Source: Flavobacterium filum DSM 17961 (GTDB lineage Bacteria; Bacteroidota; Bacteroidia; Flavobacteriales; Flavobacteriaceae). Taken from it: DNA of 64,000 nt. This document shows, in pieces, positions 29,889 to 41,452 of this stretch. The notes under the pieces were generated by a model. It had not been told where the DNA came from and searched no databases. It saw only the letters and a program-made list of their open reading frames with translations. The DNA is taken from assembly GCF_000425465.1 (NCBI RefSeq), contig NZ_AUDM01000005.1, forward strand, positions 62,001 through 126,000, written 5' to 3'. The position numbers and the translations under genes were made by a program. Position 1 is the first letter of the stretch. The number at the start of each line of letters is the position of its first letter.

Positions 29889-31430
29889 ATGGCAAAACAA
29901 GAAGATAATTTTAAGAATGTAATTTCACACGCAAAGGAGTACGGATTTATTTTTCCGTCGAGTGAAATTTATGACGGTTTGAGTGCCGTTTATGATTATG
30001 CCCAAAACGGTGCAGAATTAAAGAAAAACATTAGAGAATATTGGTGGAAATCAATGGTACAAATGCATGAAAACATCGTGGGAATTGATGCTGCGATTTT
30101 TATGCACCCCACCACTTGGAAAGCTTCCGGTCACGTGGATGCGTTTAACGACCCGTTGATTGACAACAAAGATTCGAAAAAAAGATACCGTGCCGACGTT
30201 TTAATTGAGGATTATGCCGAAAAATTAAATCAAAAAGCACAAAAAGAAATCGACAAAGCCAGAGAACGTTTTGGCGATGCGTTTGACGAAGGACAATTTG
30301 TGACTACTAATGCTCGTGTAATGGAATACAAAGCCAAACAACGCGAGATTTTGGAAAGAATGGCTCGTTCGTTAGGCAATGAAGATTTGGCCGATGTAAA
30401 GGCGTTAATTGAAGAATTAGAAATCGCTTGTCCCGAATCCGGTTCTCGCAATTGGACGGAAGTGCGTCAGTTTAACTTGATGTTCGGCACCAAATTAGGA
30501 GCTTCTGCTGATTCTGCGATGGATTTGTACTTGCGTCCGGAAACGGCACAAGGAATTTTCGTGAATTTCTTAAACGTACAAAAATCAGGTCGTATGAAGA
30601 TTCCGTTCGGAATTGCTCAAACCGGAAAAGCCTTCAGAAACGAGATTGTAGCTCGTCAGTTCATCTTCCGTATGCGTGAATTTGAACAAATGGAAATGCA
30701 ATTTTTCGTAAAACCGGGTGAAGAAATGAAATGGTACGAATACTGGAAAGAAACCCGTTTAAAATGGCATTTATCACTGGGTTTAGGCAAAGAAAATTAC
30801 CGTTTTCACGACCACGAAAAATTAGCTCATTATGCCAATGCAGCAGCGGATATTGAATTTAATTTCCCATTTGGTTTCAAAGAATTAGAAGGAATTCACT
30901 CGCGTACTGATTTCGATTTGAAAGCTCACGAACAATATTCCGGTAAAAAATTGCAATACTTTGATACAGAGGAAAATAGAAATTATGTACCGTATGTAGT
31001 AGAAACTTCGGTTGGTTTAGATCGTATGTTTTTGGCTGTTTTCTCCAATTCGTTAGTGGAAGAAACCTTAGAAGACGGTTCAACTCGCACCGTTTTGCGT
31101 TTGCCATCTGTTTTGGCACCCACTAAAGCGGCTATTTTACCTTTGGTAAAGAAAGATGGTTTACCGGAAATTTCAAGAAAAATAGTAGAAGAATTAAAAT
31201 GGGATTTCAACGTAGCGTATGACGAAAAAGATGCGGTAGGGCGACGTTACAGAAGACAAGATGCGTTAGGAACTCCTTTTTGCATCACGGTAGATCATCA
31301 AACTGCAGAAGATGAAACCGTAACCATTCGTCACAGAGATTCAATGCAACAAGATCGCGTAAAGATTTCGGAACTAAGAGACATTATTGCTAATGATGTT
31401 TCGATGCGAAATTGGTTAATGAAAATGTAA
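29889..31430 (+). CDS. glyS: Glycyl-tRNA synthetase (class II, single-chain type)
   Basis: This 513-residue protein charges tRNA-Gly. It shows class II features: the motif 2 region AFRNEIVARQFIFRMREFEQMEMQ, motif 3 VVETSVGLDRMFLAV, and the C-terminal anticodon-binding domain (LAPTKAAILPLVKKDGLPE). DLYLRPETAQGIFVNF is characteristic of the alpha2 glycine enzyme. A TATTTTTG -7 element at 29874-29881 lies close to the start codon, but no -33 TTG is at the right distance. A terminator follows at 31456. Confidence 0.96.
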   Translation: MAKQEDNFKNVISHAKEYGFIFPSSEIYDGLSAVYDYAQNGAELKKNIREYWWKSMVQMHENIVGIDAAIFMHPTTWKASGHVDAFNDPLIDNKDSKKRYRADVLIEDYAEKLNQKAQKEIDKARERFGDAFDEGQFVTTNARVMEYKAKQREILERMARSLGNEDLADVKALIEELEIACPESGSRNWTEVRQFNLMFGTKLGASADSAMDLYLRPETAQGIFVNFLNVQKSGRMKIPFGIAQTGKAFRNEIVARQFIFRMREFEQMEMQFFVKPGEEMKWYEYWKETRLKWHLSLGLGKENYRFHDHEKLAHYANAAADIEFNFPFGFKELEGIHSRTDFDLKAHEQYSGKKLQYFDTEENRNYVPYVVETSVGLDRMFLAVFSNSLVEETLEDGSTRTVLRLPSVLAPTKAAILPLVKKDGLPEISRKIVEELKWDFNVAYDEKDAVGRRYRRQDALGTPFCITVDHQTAEDETVTIRHRDSMQQDRVKISELRDIIANDVSMRNWLMKM

Positions 31431-31735: not shown

Positions 31736-32833
31736 ATGATGTACACCTACCTCATTTTAGATGACGACAGCAAAAGCGTGTTGAAGATTCAGTCGATTAT
31801 GGCTGAATTTTCCAATTTTCAGCTTTTGGCAACGGCATCAACGTATGAGGATGGGTTAAATGCCGTCTTAACGTACCAACCTGATTTTATCTTCCTGGAA
31901 ATTAATCCGTTATCAACTTCATCTCAACTTTCTTTGTCATTGATCAATGAGTTACATCGTTATTTAAAAAAAGTACCTCAAATTATTGCAATTTCACACG
32001 ATTCAACCAAAGCTGTTGAAGCGGTGAAATATGATGTGTTAGATTTTTTGGTAAAACCTTTTTCCGCTAATGACATTCGGAAATTATTGTTTCGTTTTCA
32101 AAAAAACCACGAAGTGCCGGTTATTCGCTTGAATCCGGAACTAAGAAAAGTGGCACCGGTTCAAGAAGCAGAAGCAAAAACAGAACAAACAGTAGTTACA
32201 GAAGAAATAGTAAATCCTCCGATTATTCAGCCAATTGCTCATCATGATGGATTTAAGGAATTGATTGAACTGTTGAAAATGGAACTAACTTCCTTGAAAG
32301 AAGCCATTTTGGAAAAACAAACGATAGAAACACCAATTATAGATACCGCTGAAATAACGAACCAATTAGTGGCTGTTATTTCAGATAGACTACCACAAAC
32401 GACTACTTTTTCTGTTGAACCTATTATTGAGGAATTGAAAAAGGTAAATAGTCATTCTATAACAGAGCCGAAAGAAGGTGTACACCGCAATTTAATTTGT
32501 ATAAAATCCTACGGTGATTATCGTTTTTTAGAATTGGATGAGATTGCTTACTTAAAAGCGGACAACAATTCGACCGACATTACTTTATATAATGGAGAAT
32601 CGGTTACAGCATTTAAAACCCTAAAATATTTTGAAGAAAACCTGCCTCACAATTTTTTCAGAATACATAATAGTTACATGGTGAACAAAAATTTTGTTTC
32701 AAGAGTCCATACCGGAAATGCGGTTTTTTATATCAAAAATTCCAAAACGCAGGTGCCATTTTCCAAAAGTTATAAAGAAAATGTGGAATTAATCCTTTCT
32801 CAACTCGCCGGAATCGATTTTAAAGACATTTAA
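31736..32833 (+). CDS. LytTR-type transcription regulator with a pseudo-receiver domain
   Basis: From ATG 31736 (MMYTYLILDDD) this is 365 residues. A TTG seven codons earlier is less plausible. Residues 1-125 form a receiver domain with an acidic triplet (D9-D11) and Lys in DFLVKPFS, but the phospho-acceptor position reads FIFLE55IN, Glu instead of Asp. Residues about 140-255 are a Glu/Thr-rich, partly helical linker. Residues about 260-365 are a LytTR DNA-binding domain (FLELDEIAYLKADNNSTDITLYNG, FFRIHNSYMVNKNFV). Known LytTR domains bind direct repeats about 21-22 bp apart, which are present at 36602-36628 and 36936-36962. The next genes are a secreted repeat peptide and a histidine kinase. 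Confidence 0.88.
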   Translation: MMYTYLILDDDSKSVLKIQSIMAEFSNFQLLATASTYEDGLNAVLTYQPDFIFLEINPLSTSSQLSLSLINELHRYLKKVPQIIAISHDSTKAVEAVKYDVLDFLVKPFSANDIRKLLFRFQKNHEVPVIRLNPELRKVAPVQEAEAKTEQTVVTEEIVNPPIIQPIAHHDGFKELIELLKMELTSLKEAILEKQTIETPIIDTAEITNQLVAVISDRLPQTTTFSVEPIIEELKKVNSHSITEPKEGVHRNLICIKSYGDYRFLELDEIAYLKADNNSTDITLYNGESVTAFKTLKYFEENLPHNFFRIHNSYMVNKNFVSRVHTGNAVFYIKNSKTQVPFSKSYKENVELILSQLAGIDFKDI

Positions 32834-32871
32834 AAGCGATTCATCCACCTTTATAATTTATTAATCCACAC

Positions 32872-32940
32872 TCAAACGAATACATTCTACTTCAAACCCC
32901 TTGATTTCATTGGTGGTAAGGGAGCATCATACTACTTTTA
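32872..32940 (+). promoter_or_regulatory. Possible promoter/operator of the repeat-peptide gene
   Basis: CATTCT (32883), AAACC (32894) and CTTTTACATC with -7-like TACTTTTA (32933-32940) occur in the same order as in the operators of the RNA units at 36571 and 36905. The CATTCT-AAACC distance is the same (11 bp), but the distance to the -7 element is 8 bp longer. TCAAAC is repeated 20 bp apart (32872, 32892). No exact ACCGTA box is present. The match is weak. Confidence 0.35.
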
Positions 32941-33064
32941 CATCGTGAATGAAAGGTGTCCACGTTCGGTTCATTTCATTTTACATCCGAGTCAAACATA
33001 TAGTATATTAAATGAGCGACTCAACCAAATTCAACTTAAAATAACTTACAAAAATAAAAATACC

Positions 33065-33256
33065 ATGAAAACAATTTTCGCATTATTAGGATTATTTATG
33101 TTTACTTCAGTTTCTTCTACAGATTTTACTGCACCAGTTGAAAATGGTGATGGTGGATCATTAGGAGGAGGAAGAAAAGTTTTGGTTATCCAAGTTTCTG
33201 AAAACGGAGATGGTGGATCATTAGGAGGAGGAAGAAAAGTATTGGTTATTCAATAA
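33065..33256 (+). CDS. Secreted 63-residue peptide with a duplicated 18-residue unit
   Basis: The start is set at ATG 33065, where a signal peptide begins (MKTIFALLGLFMFTSVSS). The frame is open 40 codons further upstream but that part looks non-coding. The mature part has two exact copies of an 18-residue unit, beginning ENGDGGSLGGG and ending RKVLVIQ, with V-S between them. The second copy is followed directly by the stop. The DNA copies (33140-33193, 33200-33253) differ at four positions, all synonymous, which implies selection on the peptide. There are no cysteines. It could be a precursor of short signalling or antimicrobial peptides, cut at the Gly-Gly or Arg-Lys positions. That is inference. 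It lies between the LytTR gene and the kinase gene. Confidence 0.7.
   Translation: MKTIFALLGLFMFTSVSSTDFTAPVENGDGGSLGGGRKVLVIQVSENGDGGSLGGGRKVLVIQ
33140..33253 (+). repeat. Tandem 54-bp coding repeat (period 60 bp) in the peptide gene
   Basis: Two 54-bp units are separated by 6 bp and differ at four wobble positions. Both encode the same 18 residues. Confidence 0.9.
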
Positions 33257-33330: not shown

Positions 33331-35364
33331 TTGAAAAGATTTTTTTTGTTTTTATTTTGTTTAGTGTTGTTGTCATGTGAAAATCATTCTTTTATTAAAG
33401 AAAAGAATAAGAGTTTACAAGACAGCATAAGTTTGTTTATTGAAAAAGCGAACAACTATGAATTACCAGAAGCTAAAGCATTAGAGCATTTAGTTAAAGC
33501 AGAAAGTCTTGTTAATGTTTTACCGAAAGACTCATTGTATTTTAAGAACAAAGTTTATGTTGGTTTTATTTACTATAATTTAGGAAATAAAGAAAAATAT
33601 AAAACCATATCTTTTGAATTAATTAATGATGCCATTGAAGCTAAAGATTCTTTTTATTTAGCAAGAGCTTACAGTTATATAGGGGATTACTACACTGATA
33701 AAGTTGTATTGGATAGTGCTGTTATTTATTATCAAAATGCTGAAAAAGTTTATTTTGGTATAAAAGATAATATTGGTATTGGTAGGATGCATGTAAAAAT
33801 GGCAACCGCTAAATTTCGTGCCAGAGATTACCTTGGTAGTGAAAAGTCTGCCGTAATGGCTTTAACCTATATCCGTCTAGCTAATAATAAATTATTGGAA
33901 TATGAGGCAAACAGTACTTTAGGACTAGCTTGTGTTGAAACGAAAGACTATGAAAAAGCAGATGAATATTTTCAAAAAGCATACAAGATAGCAAGAGAGG
34001 AAAATTTAGAAAATCTTGGACAATATCAATCAAAAGCTATTTCTTTAAATAATTTAGGATTTTTAAATTTAAAATCCGGTAAATACAAAGAGGCATTAAA
34101 CTATTTTAATCAAGCTAATCAAGATTCGAATTTGAAAATTGAATTTCCGGAACTTTATGCTACCATTTTAGACAACAAAGCAAAAGCAAAATTAAAACTT
34201 GGTGATTTTTCTGGTTTACCTGGAGATTTTTTAGAACCTTTAAAAATCAGAAAAAATTTCAATCTTACTCCTGAAATTGTAAATAGTAAAATCAATTTAT
34301 CCGAATATTATCAAGCCAAAGGCATTCCAGATAGTGCTAAATATTATGCTCAAGCAGCATATGATTTAGCCAGAAAAACGAATATTTTAAATCTTCGATT
34401 AACTTCAGTTCAACAATTGAGCAAAGTAGATCCTGATAATGAGAGTTCACTTTCAAAAGAGCAGATTAATTTGACGGATAGTTTATTACAAGCGGAACGA
34501 CAAGTTTCAGAAAAATTTGCTCGTATCGCATACGAAACCGACGAATTCAAACGCCAAAAAGAGCGGTTGTCGGCACAAAATCAAAACATTATTGTATTTT
34601 CTTTGTTAGGTTTTTTGTTGATTATTTTATTGTATGTTGTAAAGGATCAGCGAAGCCGCAATTACCAATTTAAATTAAAAGAGTCTCAGCAGCGGGCCAA
34701 TGAAGAAATTTTTGCCTTGATGCTTTCCCAACAAAAAATGATGGATGAAAGTGTGCAAAAAGAAAAGCAACGCATAGGTCAAGAATTGCATGATGGTGTA
34801 TTAGGGCGTTTGTTTGGAGCTCGATTAAACCTGGATAGTGCCAACAGACGTGATGACGAGAAAGGCATCGAAATTAGAAACCACTATATTAATGAGTTGA
34901 AATACATTGAACAGGATATTCGTGAAATTTCGCATGAATTGAACCGCGAACGTTTTGCGTTGATTAACAATTTCGTGGCGATTATTACCAATTTATTTGA
35001 AGAACAAAAACTGCTAAAAGACACCGTTTATTTTTCTTATACCATTGACAGTGTCATCAATTGGGATAGCGTTCCCAACAATATCAAAATTAACGTGTAC
35101 CGTATTATTCAGGAAGCATTGCAAAATATAAATAAATATGCGGAGGCCAAAAACGTATCGGTAGCGATTGTAAAAGATGCAGAAAACATTCATGTTTCCG
35201 TTATTGATGATGGAGTTGGGTTTGATACTTCAAGAAAAAGCAAAGGCATCGGCCTTCAAAACATAGAATCTCGTGTAAAAACCTGTAAAGGAAAACTTGA
35301 AATCAAATCTAAAAAAGGCAAAGGAACGAGTATTAGTATTGATTTGCCTATACATGGTAGTTAA
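33331..35364 (+). CDS. TPR-containing sensor histidine kinase lipoprotein
   Basis: The reading starts at TTG 33331, because the residues that follow form a textbook lipoprotein signal (KRFFLFLFCLVLLSC) and no ATG alternative keeps it. It is 677 residues. Residues about 40-400 hold tetratricopeptide repeats (for example AIYYQNAEKVYF, ADEYFQKAYKIA, ALNYFNQANQD). A single membrane helix (NIIVFSLLGFLLIILLYVV) precedes a HisKA_3 dimerisation helix with H487 in GQELHDGVLGRL. A HATPase_c domain follows (IDDGVGFD, KGIGLQNIESRV). The TPR part faces outside the cytoplasm and probably senses a peptide or protein. A TACTTTTG -7-like element lies at 33305-33312. The paired regulator is at 35464. Confidence 0.9.
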   Translation: MKRFFLFLFCLVLLSCENHSFIKEKNKSLQDSISLFIEKANNYELPEAKALEHLVKAESLVNVLPKDSLYFKNKVYVGFIYYNLGNKEKYKTISFELINDAIEAKDSFYLARAYSYIGDYYTDKVVLDSAVIYYQNAEKVYFGIKDNIGIGRMHVKMATAKFRARDYLGSEKSAVMALTYIRLANNKLLEYEANSTLGLACVETKDYEKADEYFQKAYKIAREENLENLGQYQSKAISLNNLGFLNLKSGKYKEALNYFNQANQDSNLKIEFPELYATILDNKAKAKLKLGDFSGLPGDFLEPLKIRKNFNLTPEIVNSKINLSEYYQAKGIPDSAKYYAQAAYDLARKTNILNLRLTSVQQLSKVDPDNESSLSKEQINLTDSLLQAERQVSEKFARIAYETDEFKRQKERLSAQNQNIIVFSLLGFLLIILLYVVKDQRSRNYQFKLKESQQRANEEIFALMLSQQKMMDESVQKEKQRIGQELHDGVLGRLFGARLNLDSANRRDDEKGIEIRNHYINELKYIEQDIREISHELNRERFALINNFVAIITNLFEEQKLLKDTVYFSYTIDSVINWDSVPNNIKINVYRIIQEALQNINKYAEAKNVSVAIVKDAENIHVSVIDDGVGFDTSRKSKGIGLQNIESRVKTCKGKLEIKSKKGKGTSISIDLPIHGS

Positions 35365-35463: not shown

Positions 35464-36129
35464 ATGTCAAAGAACTACCAGATTATTATTGTTGATGACC
35501 ATCCTTTTATTATTGAAGCCTATAAAAACGCTTTAAAGAGCTACAGCGTAAATAATTTTGATTACACCACTACGCAAGCCAACAATTGTAAAACGGCTTA
35601 TGAAACCATCATGAATGCAACTCAAGCATTTGATATTGCGTTTCTAGACATTAGCATGCCGGCTTATGAGGAAAAAAACATCATGTCGGGAGAAGATTTG
35701 GCCAAACTGCTTCGCAAACACATGCCGGATTGTAAAATCATATTGCTAACCATGCATACAGAGTTGATAAAAATCAATTCTATCATCAAAGAAATTAATC
35801 CGAATGGGTTAATTATCAAAAACGATTTAACTTTTGATGAATTGTTGAATGCATTTGACAGAATATTGAAAAACGACAATTATTACAGCCAAACGGTCGT
35901 AAAATTTGTCAGTCAATCACAATATGAAAACCTTCAAGTAGATGAATTTGATAAACAAATTCTGTTTCATTTGTCAAAAGGAGTAAAAACTAAAGATTTA
36001 CCGGGGTTTGTTCCACTTTCGCTAAGTGCGATAGAAAAACGAAAATTGAATTTAAAGGAAACCCTTAGTGTGAAAGGCGGCAGTGATGTTGAATTGATTA
36101 CAGAAGCCAAAAACAAAGGGCTCATTTAA
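35464..36129 (+). CDS. Response regulator with LuxR-like C-terminus
   Basis: From ATG 35464 (MSKNYQIIIVDDHPF) this is 221 residues. The TTG 10 codons upstream overlaps the -7 element and is rejected. The receiver domain has D11-D12, phospho-acceptor D62 in AFLDISMPA, Thr in ILLTMH and Lys in GLIIKND. A short extra loop (YEEKNIMSGED) follows D62. The C-terminal 60 residues resemble a degenerate LuxR/FixJ helix-turn-helix (FDKQILFHLSKGVKTKDLPGFVPLSLSAIEKRKLNL). It is the natural partner of the HisKA_3 kinase 100 bp upstream. A TATATTTG -7 element sits at 35429-35436. The three RNA-like units start right after it. Confidence 0.88.
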   Translation: MSKNYQIIIVDDHPFIIEAYKNALKSYSVNNFDYTTTQANNCKTAYETIMNATQAFDIAFLDISMPAYEEKNIMSGEDLAKLLRKHMPDCKIILLTMHTELIKINSIIKEINPNGLIIKNDLTFDELLNAFDRILKNDNYYSQTVVKFVSQSQYENLQVDEFDKQILFHLSKGVKTKDLPGFVPLSLSAIEKRKLNLKETLSVKGGSDVELITEAKNKGLI

Positions 36130-36147
36130 ACCCAAAACGACTCAAAA

Positions 36148-36226
36148 CCGTAAACAAATCGGTATAAAACCACACAAAAAAATACGGTTAACCGTAACTA
36201 ATTGTCTGACAATCAATTTACTTTTG
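36148..36226 (+). promoter_or_regulatory. ACCGTA boxes and promoter of RNA-like unit 1
   Basis: CCGTA at 36148-36152 and 36192-36196 and the inverted form TACGGT at 36183-36188 precede a -7 element TACTTTTG (36219-36226). The 22-bp-spaced second box is degenerate here. This copy is the most diverged of the three. Confidence 0.5.
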
Positions 36227-36232
36227 TCATGA

Positions 36233-36380
36233 GTTAGTTTATTAACCGAATTTCCTTTATATGGAAATAGGAATCAAGAGTCATCCGTTGCCACCCTTTT
36301 ATAAGTCCCCTTTGGCTTAACCTACACACCGGAAGCTCAAGAAATCAAAAAGCGATAGTCCCCAAGCTATTGCTTTTTTT
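36233..36380 (+). ncRNA. Putative small RNA unit 1
   Basis: The predicted transcript is about 148 nt, from 6-7 nt after the -7 element to the terminator T run (stem 36351-36358 with 36367-36374). It holds a small TTTCC/GGAAA hairpin, a GCCACCCTTTT...AGTCCCC C-rich stretch (from 36290), and a terminator loop containing CCCC. There is no open reading frame with a plausible start. Its relation to units 2 and 3 rests on the boxes, the CCACCCTTTT stretch and the terminator. Confidence 0.5.
36347..36380 (+). terminator. Terminator of RNA-like unit 1
   Basis: An 8-bp stem (AGCGATAG/CTATTGCT, one G-T pair), extended by A-T pairs, with loop TCCCCAAG and then a T run. Confidence 0.8.
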
Positions 36381-36495
36381 GTTGAATAAAGTGGTAGGTG
36401 TTGCTACAAAGTACATCGGCTGTTTTTTTTCTAGCCACGAATTTCACTAATTATCACGAATTTTGAATGAACTTGCTCCCCTCTCCTTTGGAGAG

Positions 36496-36513
36496 TCCCG
36501 ATAGCTATCGGGA
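36496..36513. repeat. 18-bp palindrome TCCCGATAGCTATCGGGA, copy 1
   Basis: A perfect palindrome within a wider CTCCCCTCTCCTTTGGAGAG...GGAGGGG context. An identical copy is at 41392-41409, inside the second dispersed element. Confidence 0.8.
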
Positions 36514-36570
36514 GGGGTGAGGTTGAAAAAATTAAAAATCAAACAACGAATCTTCAGTCAGAATCAATAT

Positions 36571-36659
36571 TACGGTAAACCACAACAAAAAAGGGTGAAA
36601 CCCGTAACGCATTCTGTGTAAAACCGTATTTAGATATCAAGTGGGTCGATATATCTTTA
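36571..36659 (+). promoter_or_regulatory. LytTR-like operator and promoter of RNA-like unit 2
   Basis: An inverted box TACGGT (36571) is followed by CCGTA at 36602-36606 and 36624-36628, exactly 22 bp apart. Then, after 23 bp, comes a -7-like TATCTTTA (36652-36659). All these distances are identical in the copy at 36905. Published LytTR sites are direct repeats of a 9-mer separated by 12-13 bp, which fits this geometry. The base match to the published motif is partial. Confidence 0.6.
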
Positions 36660-36665
36660 CATCAT

Positions 36666-36840
36666 CAAAAACAAGGTAATTATTCATCAAAAAAATACTA
36701 ACCCAAGAACGTAATAAGTAGCTAATCGAAAAAGAAATACCACCCTTTTGCCCCAACGAAAGATCTTATTCAAAAACAAACGCTACTTACTTACAAAAAC
36801 AAAAGAAAAAGCAATGCACCCCAAGGCATTGCTTTTTTTT
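36666..36840 (+). ncRNA. Putative small RNA unit 2
   Basis: The predicted transcript is about 175 nt. It shares long blocks with unit 3: ACAAGGTAATTATTCAT, an ACCCAAG..ACGT block, GTAGCTAA.TCGAA and CCACCCTTTTGCCCCAAC (36740-36757). An 8-bp helix (36715-36722 with 36782-36789) would close a loop that displays the C-rich stretch. Unit 3 can form a helix at the same place with shifted pairing. No ORF is visible. Confidence 0.6.
36806..36840 (+). terminator. Terminator of RNA-like unit 2
   Basis: A 12-bp stem (AAAAAGCAATGC with its complement) with loop ACCCCAAG and eight T. Confidence 0.9.
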
Positions 36841-36904
36841 ATTTGCATGAAGTTGGTTGAAATTACCACAAATATATTCAGTGAATTTGTAGCTCAGTTA
36901 GGTT

Positions 36905-36993
36905 TACGGTAAACCACAACAACAAAGGGTGAAACCCGTAACACATTCTGAGTAAAACCGTATTTAAATATCTAGTAGGTAGCTATATCTTTA
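36905..36993 (+). promoter_or_regulatory. LytTR-like operator and promoter of RNA-like unit 3
   Basis: TACGGT (36905), CCGTA at 36936-36940 and 36958-36962 (22 bp apart) and TATCTTTA (36986-36993), in the same spacing as unit 2. The sequence between the boxes is also nearly the same (CATTCTGAGTAAAA). Confidence 0.6.
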
Positions 36994-36999
36994 CATCAT

Positions 37000-37172
37000 C
37001 AATAACAAGGTAATTATTCATAATTAAAGATATTGACCCAAGGACGTTCAGAGTAGCTAAATCGAATTAAAATACCACCCTTTTGCCCCAACAAAGGTTT
37101 ATTTCATAAAAGAGCTACTGTTTTTTAAAGGTTTAGATAAAAAAAGCGATAGCCCCAACTATCGCTTTTTTT
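37000..37172 (+). ncRNA. Putative small RNA unit 3
   Basis: The predicted transcript is about 170 nt, a close relative of unit 2. The C-rich stretch is at 37075-37092. A 7-bp helix AGTAGCT/AGCTACT (37052-37058 with 37113-37119) replaces the AAGTAGC/GCTACTT-type pairing of unit 2. The RNA ends one base from the thiL stop codon on the other strand. Confidence 0.6.
37139..37172. terminator. Bidirectional terminator of RNA-like unit 3 and thiL
   Basis: A 12-bp perfect stem (AAAAAGCGATAG with its complement) and loop CCCCAA, with T runs on both strands. It can end unit 3 and the convergent thiL transcript. Confidence 0.88.
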
Positions 37173-37173
37173 A

Positions 37174-38220
37174 TTATTCTGCTAAGGCATTCCAGCCTCT
37201 GGCTTTGAGTTCTATTTTTTGATTGGCTCGCGTTACCAAATGTTTGCCTTCACTTTCTTTCACCATGTGACCAATTACGGTTAAATTAGGATTTCCTTTG
37301 ATTTTATCATAGTCTTCCAAAGCAATCGTAAATAACAATTCGTAATCTTCGCCGCCGTTAATAGCGACTGTAGTGCTATCGATATTGAATTCTTCGCAAA
37401 CAGCAATTAATTGTGGGTCGAGCGGAAGTTTCTCTTCGTAAATCGTGCAACCTACATTAGATTGTTTACAAAGATGCATGATTTCAGAGGAAAGTCCGTC
37501 GGAAATATCAATCATCGAAGTAGGTTTTACTTCCAGTTTTTCTAACAATTCTTTGATATCTTTTCGAGCTTCAGGCTTCAATTGACGTTCGATTAAATAC
37601 GTATAATTATCTAAATCCGGTTGGTTGTTGGGATTGACTTGAAAGACTTGTTTTTCGCGTTCAAGCACTTGCAAACCCATATATGCCGCACCGATATCGC
37701 CGGTAACTACTAACAAGTCATTCGCTGCGGCTCCACTTCGATATACGATATCTTCTGCAATTGCTTCGCCTAATGCCGTGATAGAAATAATTAATCCTTT
37801 TTGAGAAGAAGTGGTATCGCCACCAATCACATCTACGTTATAATGTTTTGAAGCAAGCGTAATTCCGGCAAACAATTCTTCCAACGCTTCGAGTGGAAAA
37901 CGATTAGAAACCGCAATGGAAACGGTGATTTGGGTTGGAGTTGCATTCATCGCACAAATGTCAGATACATTCGCCACCACAGCTTTGTAACCCAAATGTT
38001 TTAACGGCATATACGCCAAATCAAAATGCACCCCTTCAATTAATAAATCGGTAGAAACAACGGTTTTTTTATCCTTGAAATCTAAAACTGCGGCGTCATC
38101 ACCAATTCCTTTAATAGTGGATGACTGATTGATTTCAAAAACCTTCGTTAAATGGTCAATTAAGCCAAATTCGCCCAATTGAGCGATGGAAGTGCGTTGG
38201 GGTGATTTTTCTTCTAACAT
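37174..38220 (-). CDS. thiL: Thiamine-monophosphate kinase
   Basis: This 348-residue protein has ThiL/PurM-fold motifs: GIGDDAAVLDF, STDLLIEGVHFDLAYM, GYKAVVANVSDICAMNATP, VIGGDTTSS and SMIDISDGLSSE. It phosphorylates thiamine monophosphate to the pyrophosphate cofactor in the cytoplasm. Its 3' end abuts the third RNA-like unit. No TPP riboswitch is visible in the 5' region (38221-38465). Confidence 0.95.
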   Translation of the reverse strand: MLEEKSPQRTSIAQLGEFGLIDHLTKVFEINQSSTIKGIGDDAAVLDFKDKKTVVSTDLLIEGVHFDLAYMPLKHLGYKAVVANVSDICAMNATPTQITVSIAVSNRFPLEALEELFAGITLASKHYNVDVIGGDTTSSQKGLIISITALGEAIAEDIVYRSGAAANDLLVVTGDIGAAYMGLQVLEREKQVFQVNPNNQPDLDNYTYLIERQLKPEARKDIKELLEKLEVKPTSMIDISDGLSSEIMHLCKQSNVGCTIYEEKLPLDPQLIAVCEEFNIDSTTVAINGGEDYELLFTIALEDYDKIKGNPNLTVIGHMVKESEGKHLVTRANQKIELKARGWNALAE

Positions 38221-41347: not shown

Positions 41348-41452
41348 GGGCGTTACCACAAGGGTCGGGCTGTCCGCTATATCTTTTGTTCTCCCGATAG
41401 CTATCGGGACTATAAAAGGATGCCGCTCCCATCCCTAACGCAAACCCTGCTC
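41348..41452 (+). repeat. Dispersed repeat element, copy 2, with internal palindrome
   Basis: It starts GGGCGTT, has CGGGCTGTCCG, and ends ATCCCTAACGCAAACCCTGC, matching the ends of copy 1 (17971-18124). The internal stem is the palindrome TCCCGATAGCTATCGGGA (41392-41409). It lies between lepA and dus, a gap of 272 bp. Confidence 0.65.

Follow-up and report, generated by a model that had tools for sequence, protein, structure and literature searches.

The window analysed here is the whole stretch of 64,000 nt, corresponding to positions 62001-126000 of contig C4 (label G000:C4) of the 3.19-Mb genome of Flavobacterium filum. The locus of interest begins with glyS (29889-31430) and continues with a LytTR-type regulator that carries a receiver domain (31736-32833, + strand; Pfam LytTR, 8e-16; Response_reg, 1e-7), an ORF of 63 aa (33065-33256, +), a sensor histidine kinase (33331-35364, +; Pfam TPR_12, HisKA_3 and HATPase_c), a response regulator (35464-36129, +; Pfam Response_reg, 7e-14) and three tandem RNA units, and it ends with thiL (37174-38220), which follows unit 3 directly on the strand opposite to the units. 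The TPR sensor occupies approximately residues 1-420 of the kinase, and by eye the N-terminus of this protein has a lipobox-like sequence and one membrane segment. In the response regulator, Pfam shows the receiver only, and the C-terminal part is LuxR-like by eye. Homologs of the response regulator were found in 37 of 60 relatives (E<=1e-10), and a 100% identical copy is present in the MAG Flavobacteriales bacterium UWPOB_FLAVO1. We gathered 58 orthologous loci for comparison, and the named relatives with this locus are Flavobacterium. The LytTR regulator can be identified in many of these loci, though not in all. In the window, its receiver has a Glu (FIFLEINP) where we would expect the phospho-accepting Asp, which suggests a pseudo-receiver.

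A candidate repeat-bearing precursor and the adjacent sensor

The 63-aa ORF encodes a candidate pheromone precursor with a signal peptide, as judged by eye, and two copies of ENGDGGSLGGGRKVLVIQ, and it had no match in Pfam or NCBIfam. Orthologous loci encode the same kind of leader with other repeats, such as ENGDGSAVTGGKRALVIQ in F. piscinae, TSDGTIGGAKRGMIITYE in F. lacus and ETGGRTPGGMGYT in F. buctense. The gene was present in 45 of the 58 loci, all entered in the covariation table, as well as in L204 and L238; the table holds 49 loci, with W, G386, G357 and G376 coming from outside the 58. Upstream sequence was incomplete in L183, L190, L198, L214 and L221, and no such gene was recognised in six loci with enough upstream sequence (L191, L193, L195, L197, L206 and L239). 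A second related kinase/regulator pair, or a regulator, stands just upstream of the kinase, at the place expected for the peptide gene, in G134 (L104:749-7185), L191, L193, L195 and L197.

Peptide similarity correlated with sensor identity at r = 0.768, with kinase core identity at 0.600 and with regulator identity at 0.532. When the kinase core and the regulator were both accounted for in a partial Mantel analysis of the 49 loci, the correlation of repeat and sensor was 0.587 and 0 of 2000 permutations were as high, the repeats having been typed by hand, one per locus, and being imperfect in several loci (e.g. L215-L219). Individual pairs of loci show the same pattern. L188 and G386 are 98% identical in the kinase core, 100% in the regulator and 97% in the LytTR protein, and their sensors are 69% identical and their repeats differ; L185 and L186 are 92% identical in the kinase core, 99% in the regulator and 52% in the sensor, again with different repeats. 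L185 and L188 have the same repeat, and their sensors are 94% identical. The locus thus holds a small putative precursor (its export judged by eye) beside the candidate receptor gene, and the types of the two covary beyond the rest of the locus, as expected of a pheromone and its receptor; the two genes are adjacent, and a single recombination could transfer both without a functional match. On this evidence the peptide is likely to be the signal.

The promoter region of the peptide gene (32840-32947, +) has repeats at 32843, 32863 and 32884 and a -7 element, TACTTTTA, from 32933. Direct repeats with a period of 20-21 bp before the -7 element are conserved in 46 aligned upstream regions. A period of 20-21 bp is the pattern expected of a LytTR site, and the LytTR protein may bind there and control peptide production.

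Three tandem RNA units behind the response regulator

The interval between the response regulator and thiL (36130-37173) had been described in a sequence-only reading as a 1-kb stretch without coding potential that holds three units of shared layout, each with ACCGTA-type boxes, a -7 element and a terminator. This description was borne out. The interval is intergenic and has no ORF of 60 aa or more; among ORFs of at least 20 aa, the longest one overlapping the unit stretch has 54 aa, a TTG start, and crosses the terminator of unit 2. All three units lie on the + strand. Unit 1 has a control region at 36147-36226, with a box at 36147, the dyad TACGGTTAACCGTA at 36183-36196 and the -7 element TACTTTTG at 36219-36226, and a predicted RNA of about 150 nt at 36231-36380, with a putative anti-partner site at 36291-36325 and a terminator at 36347-36380. 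The control region of unit 2 (36570-36659) has boxes from 36570, 36598 and 36620 and the -7 element TATCTTTA at 36652-36659; its RNA, about 177 nt from the predicted start (36664-36840), contains the stem AGTAGC/GCTACT, an anti-partner core at 36737-36757 and a terminator at 36806-36839. Unit 3 repeats this arrangement, with a control region at 36904-36993 (boxes from 36904, 36932 and 36954; TATCTTTA at 36986-36993) and a predicted RNA of about 175 nt at 36998-37172 (anti-partner core 37072-37092; terminator 37139-37172). The terminator hairpin folds in each of the three units, and a generic terminator scan reported 0 of the 3 on the + strand. A generic sigma-70 scan gave 4 promoter-like sites for 3.5 expected, which is no excess. 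The -7 elements of the units, identified by eye, have the form TAnnTTT(A/G); in F. psychrophilum, the sigma-A -7 box is TAnnTTTG (PMC9723704).

Units 2 and 3 had also been called duplicates with identical spacing. They are indeed duplicates (90% identity over 125 nt and 77% over the following 70 nt), and their spacing is the same to within 3 nt rather than identical, with the ten elements offset by 334, 334, 334, 334, 334, 335, 335, 335, 332 and 333 nt. Unit 1 has the same layout and is different in most of its sequence. No Rfam family reached its cut-off in the unit stretch. A Flavo-1 RNA (RF01705) lies at 41359-41444 (-) in the window, and the genome has 10 copies of it above cut-off; we rejected it as the identity of the units or of the partner RNA described below, as it is a different element. 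Between units 1 and 2 (36420-36540) there is an intergenic repeat with the palindrome CCCGATAGCTATCGGG (36497-36512) and CACGAATTTCAC-type phrases, similar ones of which occur between units in G205 and G386.

We built a covariance model (R1) from six units, including unit 2 of the window, and used it to search 398 genomes of the genus. In the window it scored 40.8 bits at unit 1, 116.6 bits at unit 2, which is part of the training set, and 82.3 bits at unit 3. Matches at E<1e-6, on the rough scale of a purpose-built model, were found in 12 of the 398 genomes (G000, G134, G150, G205, G278, G279, G340, G357, G374, G375, G376 and G386), among them F. piscinae, F. lacus and F. orientale. In all 12 genomes the matches lie behind the same response regulator, and in 11 of the 12 thiL is on the far side; in G374 the contig ends before the thiL position. 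At least two matches with E<1e-5 were present at the locus in 11 of the 12 genomes, and G279 had one. The blocks are not scattered without promoters, which the sequence-only reading had named as a contrary sign: the E<1e-6 matches are at the locus except for one additional boxed copy about 30 kb off in F. piscinae (G278). At E<=0.01, 207 of the 398 genomes had matches, 195 of them weaker ones only; the one examined among these 195, in G267 (L106), and a weak extra one in G205 (L107) are both away from the locus. A DNA search with units 2 and 3 listed 23 genomes at E<=0.001, of which G000, G278, G205, G279 and G150 were taken forward; the other 18 were judged, mostly from query position alone, to be A-rich or terminator matches, and G134, one of these 18, was recovered by R1, as were G376-type loci, which are absent from the DNA-search list.

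The structure of the units is conserved. Among six sequences, 88.2% of cells pair, compared with 36.4-63.8% when the structure is slid along the alignment. Five pairs show double changes (6 of 500 shuffles reach that), and the covariation score was matched by 0 of 500 shuffles, while the number of further pair types was not elevated (478 of 500 shuffles). Compensating changes are found in the outer stem AGTAGC/GCTACT and in the terminator stem, and the small inner helix pairs in 63% of cells only. From their anatomy and conservation, the units are almost certainly sRNA genes.

Each of the three units is preceded by TACGG/CCGTA boxes and a TAnnTTT(A/G) -7 element. In 32 of the 58 loci, the expression [TG][AG]CGGN2-5ACCG[TC]A has a match in the first 400 nt after the regulator, compared with 0 occurrences in 455,345 nt of their flanks, a count that excludes the 1.5 kb behind the regulator. 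Among the 26 loci without such a box, 25 show no unit by eye; L188 carries units, and the expression therefore misses some boxes. Within the F. filum genome, ACGGN2-4ACCGTA had 12 matches and its reversed control 11, so that there is no excess; its sole intergenic site is unit 1, and all matches except two at unit 1 lie within ORFs. Conservation, boxes and synteny together make it well supported that the adjacent kinase/regulator pair drives these tandem sRNA genes. The units are very probably under the control of the adjacent response regulator, which is presumed to bind the boxes as an activator.

What lies behind the regulator differs among clades. In most of the F. buctense/F. paronense-type loci (L199-L213, L236 and L240), we found a different boxed short RNA-like unit (e.g. 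L202:5664-5860) with the layout ..CAGGGTTAGTATTTGTAGAATT..ACTACT..TTAGGGGGAAGCGATAC.., and F. chilense-type loci have the peptide gene, kinase and regulator with no unit seen behind the regulator. In G357 (L103) and G134 (L104), a tiny lipoprotein-like ORF lies amid the units with the same boxes upstream, and the regulon may include this small protein.

A putative genus-wide partner RNA and its predicted targets

We found the partner RNA by searching the F. filum genome for the complement of the unit core. Its elements are intergenic, two of them in tandem at C4:58.5-58.8 kb, about 3.4 kb before the window, and one at C3:205.4 kb. They resemble an RNA gene of about 75 nt with a TACATTTG-type -7 element, a hairpin ACCATA..TATGGT whose loop holds GUAGGUUAAG (GGUUAAG in one copy), the single strand GAUUUGGGGC and a terminator. 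A covariance model of the partner, again with rough E-values, had matches at E<=1e-6 in 335 of the 398 genomes, with one to six copies among the matches listed. Among the 12 genomes with units, 11 have the partner, the exception being G374, which is 70% complete. The partner was below every cut-off in Rfam 15. Its distribution makes it a strong candidate for a core sRNA of the genus, and it is presumably expressed. When the search for the core complement allowed up to 3 mismatches, it had 17 matches in the F. filum genome and its control 16, so that the count as a whole shows no excess. A 1-mismatch complement of the unit core (GGGGCAAAAGGGCGGT) is also found outside any partner RNA, at C8:49036-49051 (L123).

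Two further identities were considered and rejected. The partner scored 22.6 and 20.1 bits as FopS (Rfam RF04319), compared with a gathering cut-off of 56, and its alignment to the FopS seed, as published, was not significant (106-700 of 2000 FopS shuffles were as good). The L199/L202-type units do not appear to be partner-like RNAs, since between 8 and 341 of 500 shuffles scored as high in the 14 loci compared, and the scores of 19-29 bits that model R2 gave at these units look terminator-driven.

The sequence CTTAACCTAC occurs at 6 sites in the F. filum genome, with 36 for the reversed control. Two of the sites are partner antisense, one is in unit 1, one begins 75 nt before a start codon and two lie 4 nt before an ATG, at C13:14418 (a CAP-domain lipoprotein) and C3:41251 (a DUF4832/DUF4874 protein with a secretion tail). 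The pattern CTTAACCTACTAN1-10ATG was matched in 82 of 121 genomes of the genus; among the matches listed, most sites read CTAATGYTATG-like and are partner antisense, and those of the CTTAACCTACTA[CT]TATG type are mRNA leaders. Among 14 stretches that we fetched, the leaders are CAP-type in 12, one of which has two such leaders, and the other two stretches encode the DUF4832 type. Three of these proteins were compared with Pfam and the rest were named by likeness; L279 and L280, which are cut at 22 aa, were named from their start. The pairs L277/L278, L279/L280 and L283/L284 repeat the same leader. In the CAP leaders, TTTGCCCCACATCTA or a close variant of it, complementary to the second segment of the partner, also occurs once or twice, and TTTGCCCCACATCTA-type sites are poor or absent in the DUF4832 leaders. 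For 11 of the 12 distinct leaders (10 of the 12 being CAP), the predicted duplex with the partner was better than all 200 shuffles, and for L287 2 of 200 shuffles were as good.

We then compared the units with the partner using duplex energies, which disregard structure and accessibility, the partner itself having been found by a complement search. Among the 28 units of the window group, 21 were better than all 200 dinucleotide shuffles, six were matched by 1-6 of 200 and one by 13 of 200. The complementarity lies mostly in two blocks, which are in the right order in many units. For units 2 and 3, the duplex with each of the three partner copies was better than those of all 5024 75-nt segments of the window; unit 1 was not exceptional, with 12, 35 and 64 of the 5024 segments as good for the three copies and 6 of 200 shuffles. 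The L206 and L198 units had 0 of 200 shuffles as good. F. selenitireducens, F. agri and two MAGs (L191, L193, L195 and L197) have another, shorter unit; its hairpin loop, AGCTTAACCTACTA, includes CTTAACCTACTA, the complement of the loop in most partner copies seen; by whole-unit energy, 2, 67, 10 and 0 of 200 shuffles were as good in these four loci. The four units tested of the L199/L202 (F. buctense-type) group gave no pairing signal, with 14, 192, 161 and 142 of 200 shuffles as good. We regard the predicted pairing of units with the partner, judged by these complementarities, as having a high probability.

The units are thus complementary to a conserved sRNA gene and resemble its predicted target site, units 2 and 3 strongly and unit 1 weakly. 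They carry the same sense as the target mRNA and not the antisense, and therefore look like target mimics (RNA sponges) of the partner. This putative sponge is clade-specific and not a universal output, because F. chilense-type loci show no unit and the L199/L202 group has another kind of unit.

A proposed signalling pathway and its alternatives

Taken together, these results point to the following pathway. A peptide that is specific to the species would be released from a short secreted precursor, which carries it in tandem copies, and would be detected by the TPR sensor of the kinase encoded next to it. The kinase would then phosphorylate the regulator, and the regulator would bind TACGG(n)CCGTA dyads and switch on transcription of the three sRNA genes that follow the regulator gene. 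Every sRNA would display the mRNA-recognition site of the partner, CCACCC-UUUU-GCCCC and CUUAACCUAC, the latter in many units including unit 1. The units would titrate the partner and so release its targets, among them the mRNA of the CAP-domain lipoprotein, which has the same site at its start-codon region; tandem copies fit such a titration device. Repression is the expected effect of partner pairing immediately upstream of the start codon: FopS-10 of Bacteroides thetaiotaomicron blocks translation in vitro by pairing beside the start codon and is counteracted by the protein RbpB (PMC11697453). The sponge should therefore derepress. Drawing on anatomy, synteny, box specificity, covariation, complementarity and target-site conservation, we favour with reasonable confidence a peptide-responsive two-component pathway with a tandem decoy sRNA output. 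That the units titrate the partner, rather than the reverse, is in our judgement probable. More broadly, we lean slightly towards a peptide communication of Flavobacterium that is diversified into pherotypes and acts, in one clade, via dedicated tandem decoy RNAs built like the target site of a core sRNA.

Several other explanations were weighed. The direction could be reversed, so that the regulator-driven units have their own mRNA targets and are restrained by the genus-wide partner, given that the complementarity of unit and partner is symmetric and that the long 5' parts of the units have an additional conserved motif, ACCCAAGAACG(T), which the partner does not explain. However, the partner is found in 335 of 398 genomes and the units in 12, and the sense sequence of the units recurs in mRNA leaders, which fits a hub role of the partner with units that mimic its target; we consider this direction decidedly unlikely. 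It is also quite improbable that the units are ordinary mRNA-regulating sRNAs in the manner of Qrr and that their complementarity to the partner is secondary or coincidental. Here, the boxed units of L199-L213, L236 and L240, four of which were tested and lack partner complementarity, indicate a link of regulator and sRNA that is independent of complementarity, but the two ordered blocks in many units, the loop complement in the second group of loci and the 21 of 28 units that beat every shuffle all speak for pairing.

The small repeat protein might instead have a role other than signalling, such as that of a secreted surface peptide subject to diversifying selection, and the kinase would then sense something else. 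Six loci (L191, L193, L195, L197, L206 and L239) showed no such gene, and adjacency could yield covariation, but the repeats change with the sensor in L185/L186 and L188/G386 while kinase core, regulator and LytTR protein stay 90-100% identical, and 0 of 2000 permutations reach the observed covariation, which leaves this explanation unlikely. Finally, it is hardly credible that these sequences form an intergenic repeat array that has terminator hairpins but lacks function and RNA genes: an intergenic repeat does lie between units 1 and 2 and the sigma-70 scan showed no excess, but the array has a fixed place behind one regulator in 12 genomes, its boxes are specific and its stems show compensating changes.

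We compared the proposed pathway, in which units act as decoys for the partner, with known systems. Qrr sRNAs of Vibrio quorum sensing are several similar sRNAs under one signalling regulator, with a sigma-54 promoter under LuxO. The sequence-only reading had likened the units to them, and the likeness holds for the layout, in which a probable pathway of cell-cell signalling ends in several similar tandem sRNAs controlled by one signalling regulator; it does not extend to kinship, as no Qrr model was among the 10 Rfam matches up to E=1. Unlike Qrr, the locus has a candidate peptide signal, a TAnnTTT(A/G)-type -7 element beside regulator dyads, an array at the signalling locus itself and decoy-like sequence. 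In agr/RNAIII and similar systems, a peptide precursor, a histidine kinase and a regulator lead to an RNA output, and peptide and receptor types covary; all of these features, with a LytTR regulator in the locus, have counterparts here. In contrast to agr, the precursor has a signal peptide and tandem linear repeats, the sensor is a TPR domain, the annotated neighbours include no AgrB-like gene, the output RNAs appear to target another sRNA, and the regulator next to them is distinct from the LytTR protein. RRNPP receptors are cytoplasmic TPR proteins that bind an imported peptide, whereas the TPRs here are part of a histidine kinase with, by eye, a lipobox-like N-terminus and a membrane segment. 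RNA sponges or target mimics of other phyla resemble the target site of an sRNA and are expected to titrate that sRNA; unlike those, the putative sponge genes here are dedicated, in tandem and behind a two-component regulator in Bacteroidota. To our knowledge, no peptide pheromone system of this kind is known in Bacteroidota.

Among the matches listed in a search of the open-access literature, which most subscription papers lie outside, there was no description of the locus, the peptide family or the partner RNA. The partner is like the FopS/GibS sRNAs (PMC11697453) in its size (~65-75 nt), in being often multicopy and in its predicted pairing beside start codons, and it differs from FopS in the Rfam scores and seed alignment given above. 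Rfp18 of F. psychrophilum (PMC9723704) affects mRNAs of metalloproteases and has a third stem-loop, through which it is predicted to pair, whereas the partner folds into two hairpins; compared by description only, the two may be the same RNA. New here are the complementarity of the units to a genus-wide sRNA of about 75 nt and a tiny, presumably secreted protein with hypervariable repeats that covary with the TPR sensor of the kinase. The sequence-only reading had been silent on the peptide gene before the kinase and on decoy-like sRNAs for a genus-wide sRNA.

If true, the proposed pathway would be a new style of communication circuit for the phylum, in which cell-cell signalling enters post-transcriptional control via sponging. 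The hypervariable repeat and covarying sensor would provide pherotypes that occur naturally. For every step from the peptide to the mRNA target, through receptor, regulator, output RNAs and sponged RNA, a candidate can be named, which makes each link testable in cultured species. In addition, the motif ACCCAAGAACGT(TC) in the unit leaders (36700-36712 and 37035-37047) resembles ACCAAATCA..ACGTTC near the presumed 5' end of the CAP mRNA (L277-L289); the part of the mRNA leader copied by the units may extend beyond the pairing site, or a protein site may be common to both.
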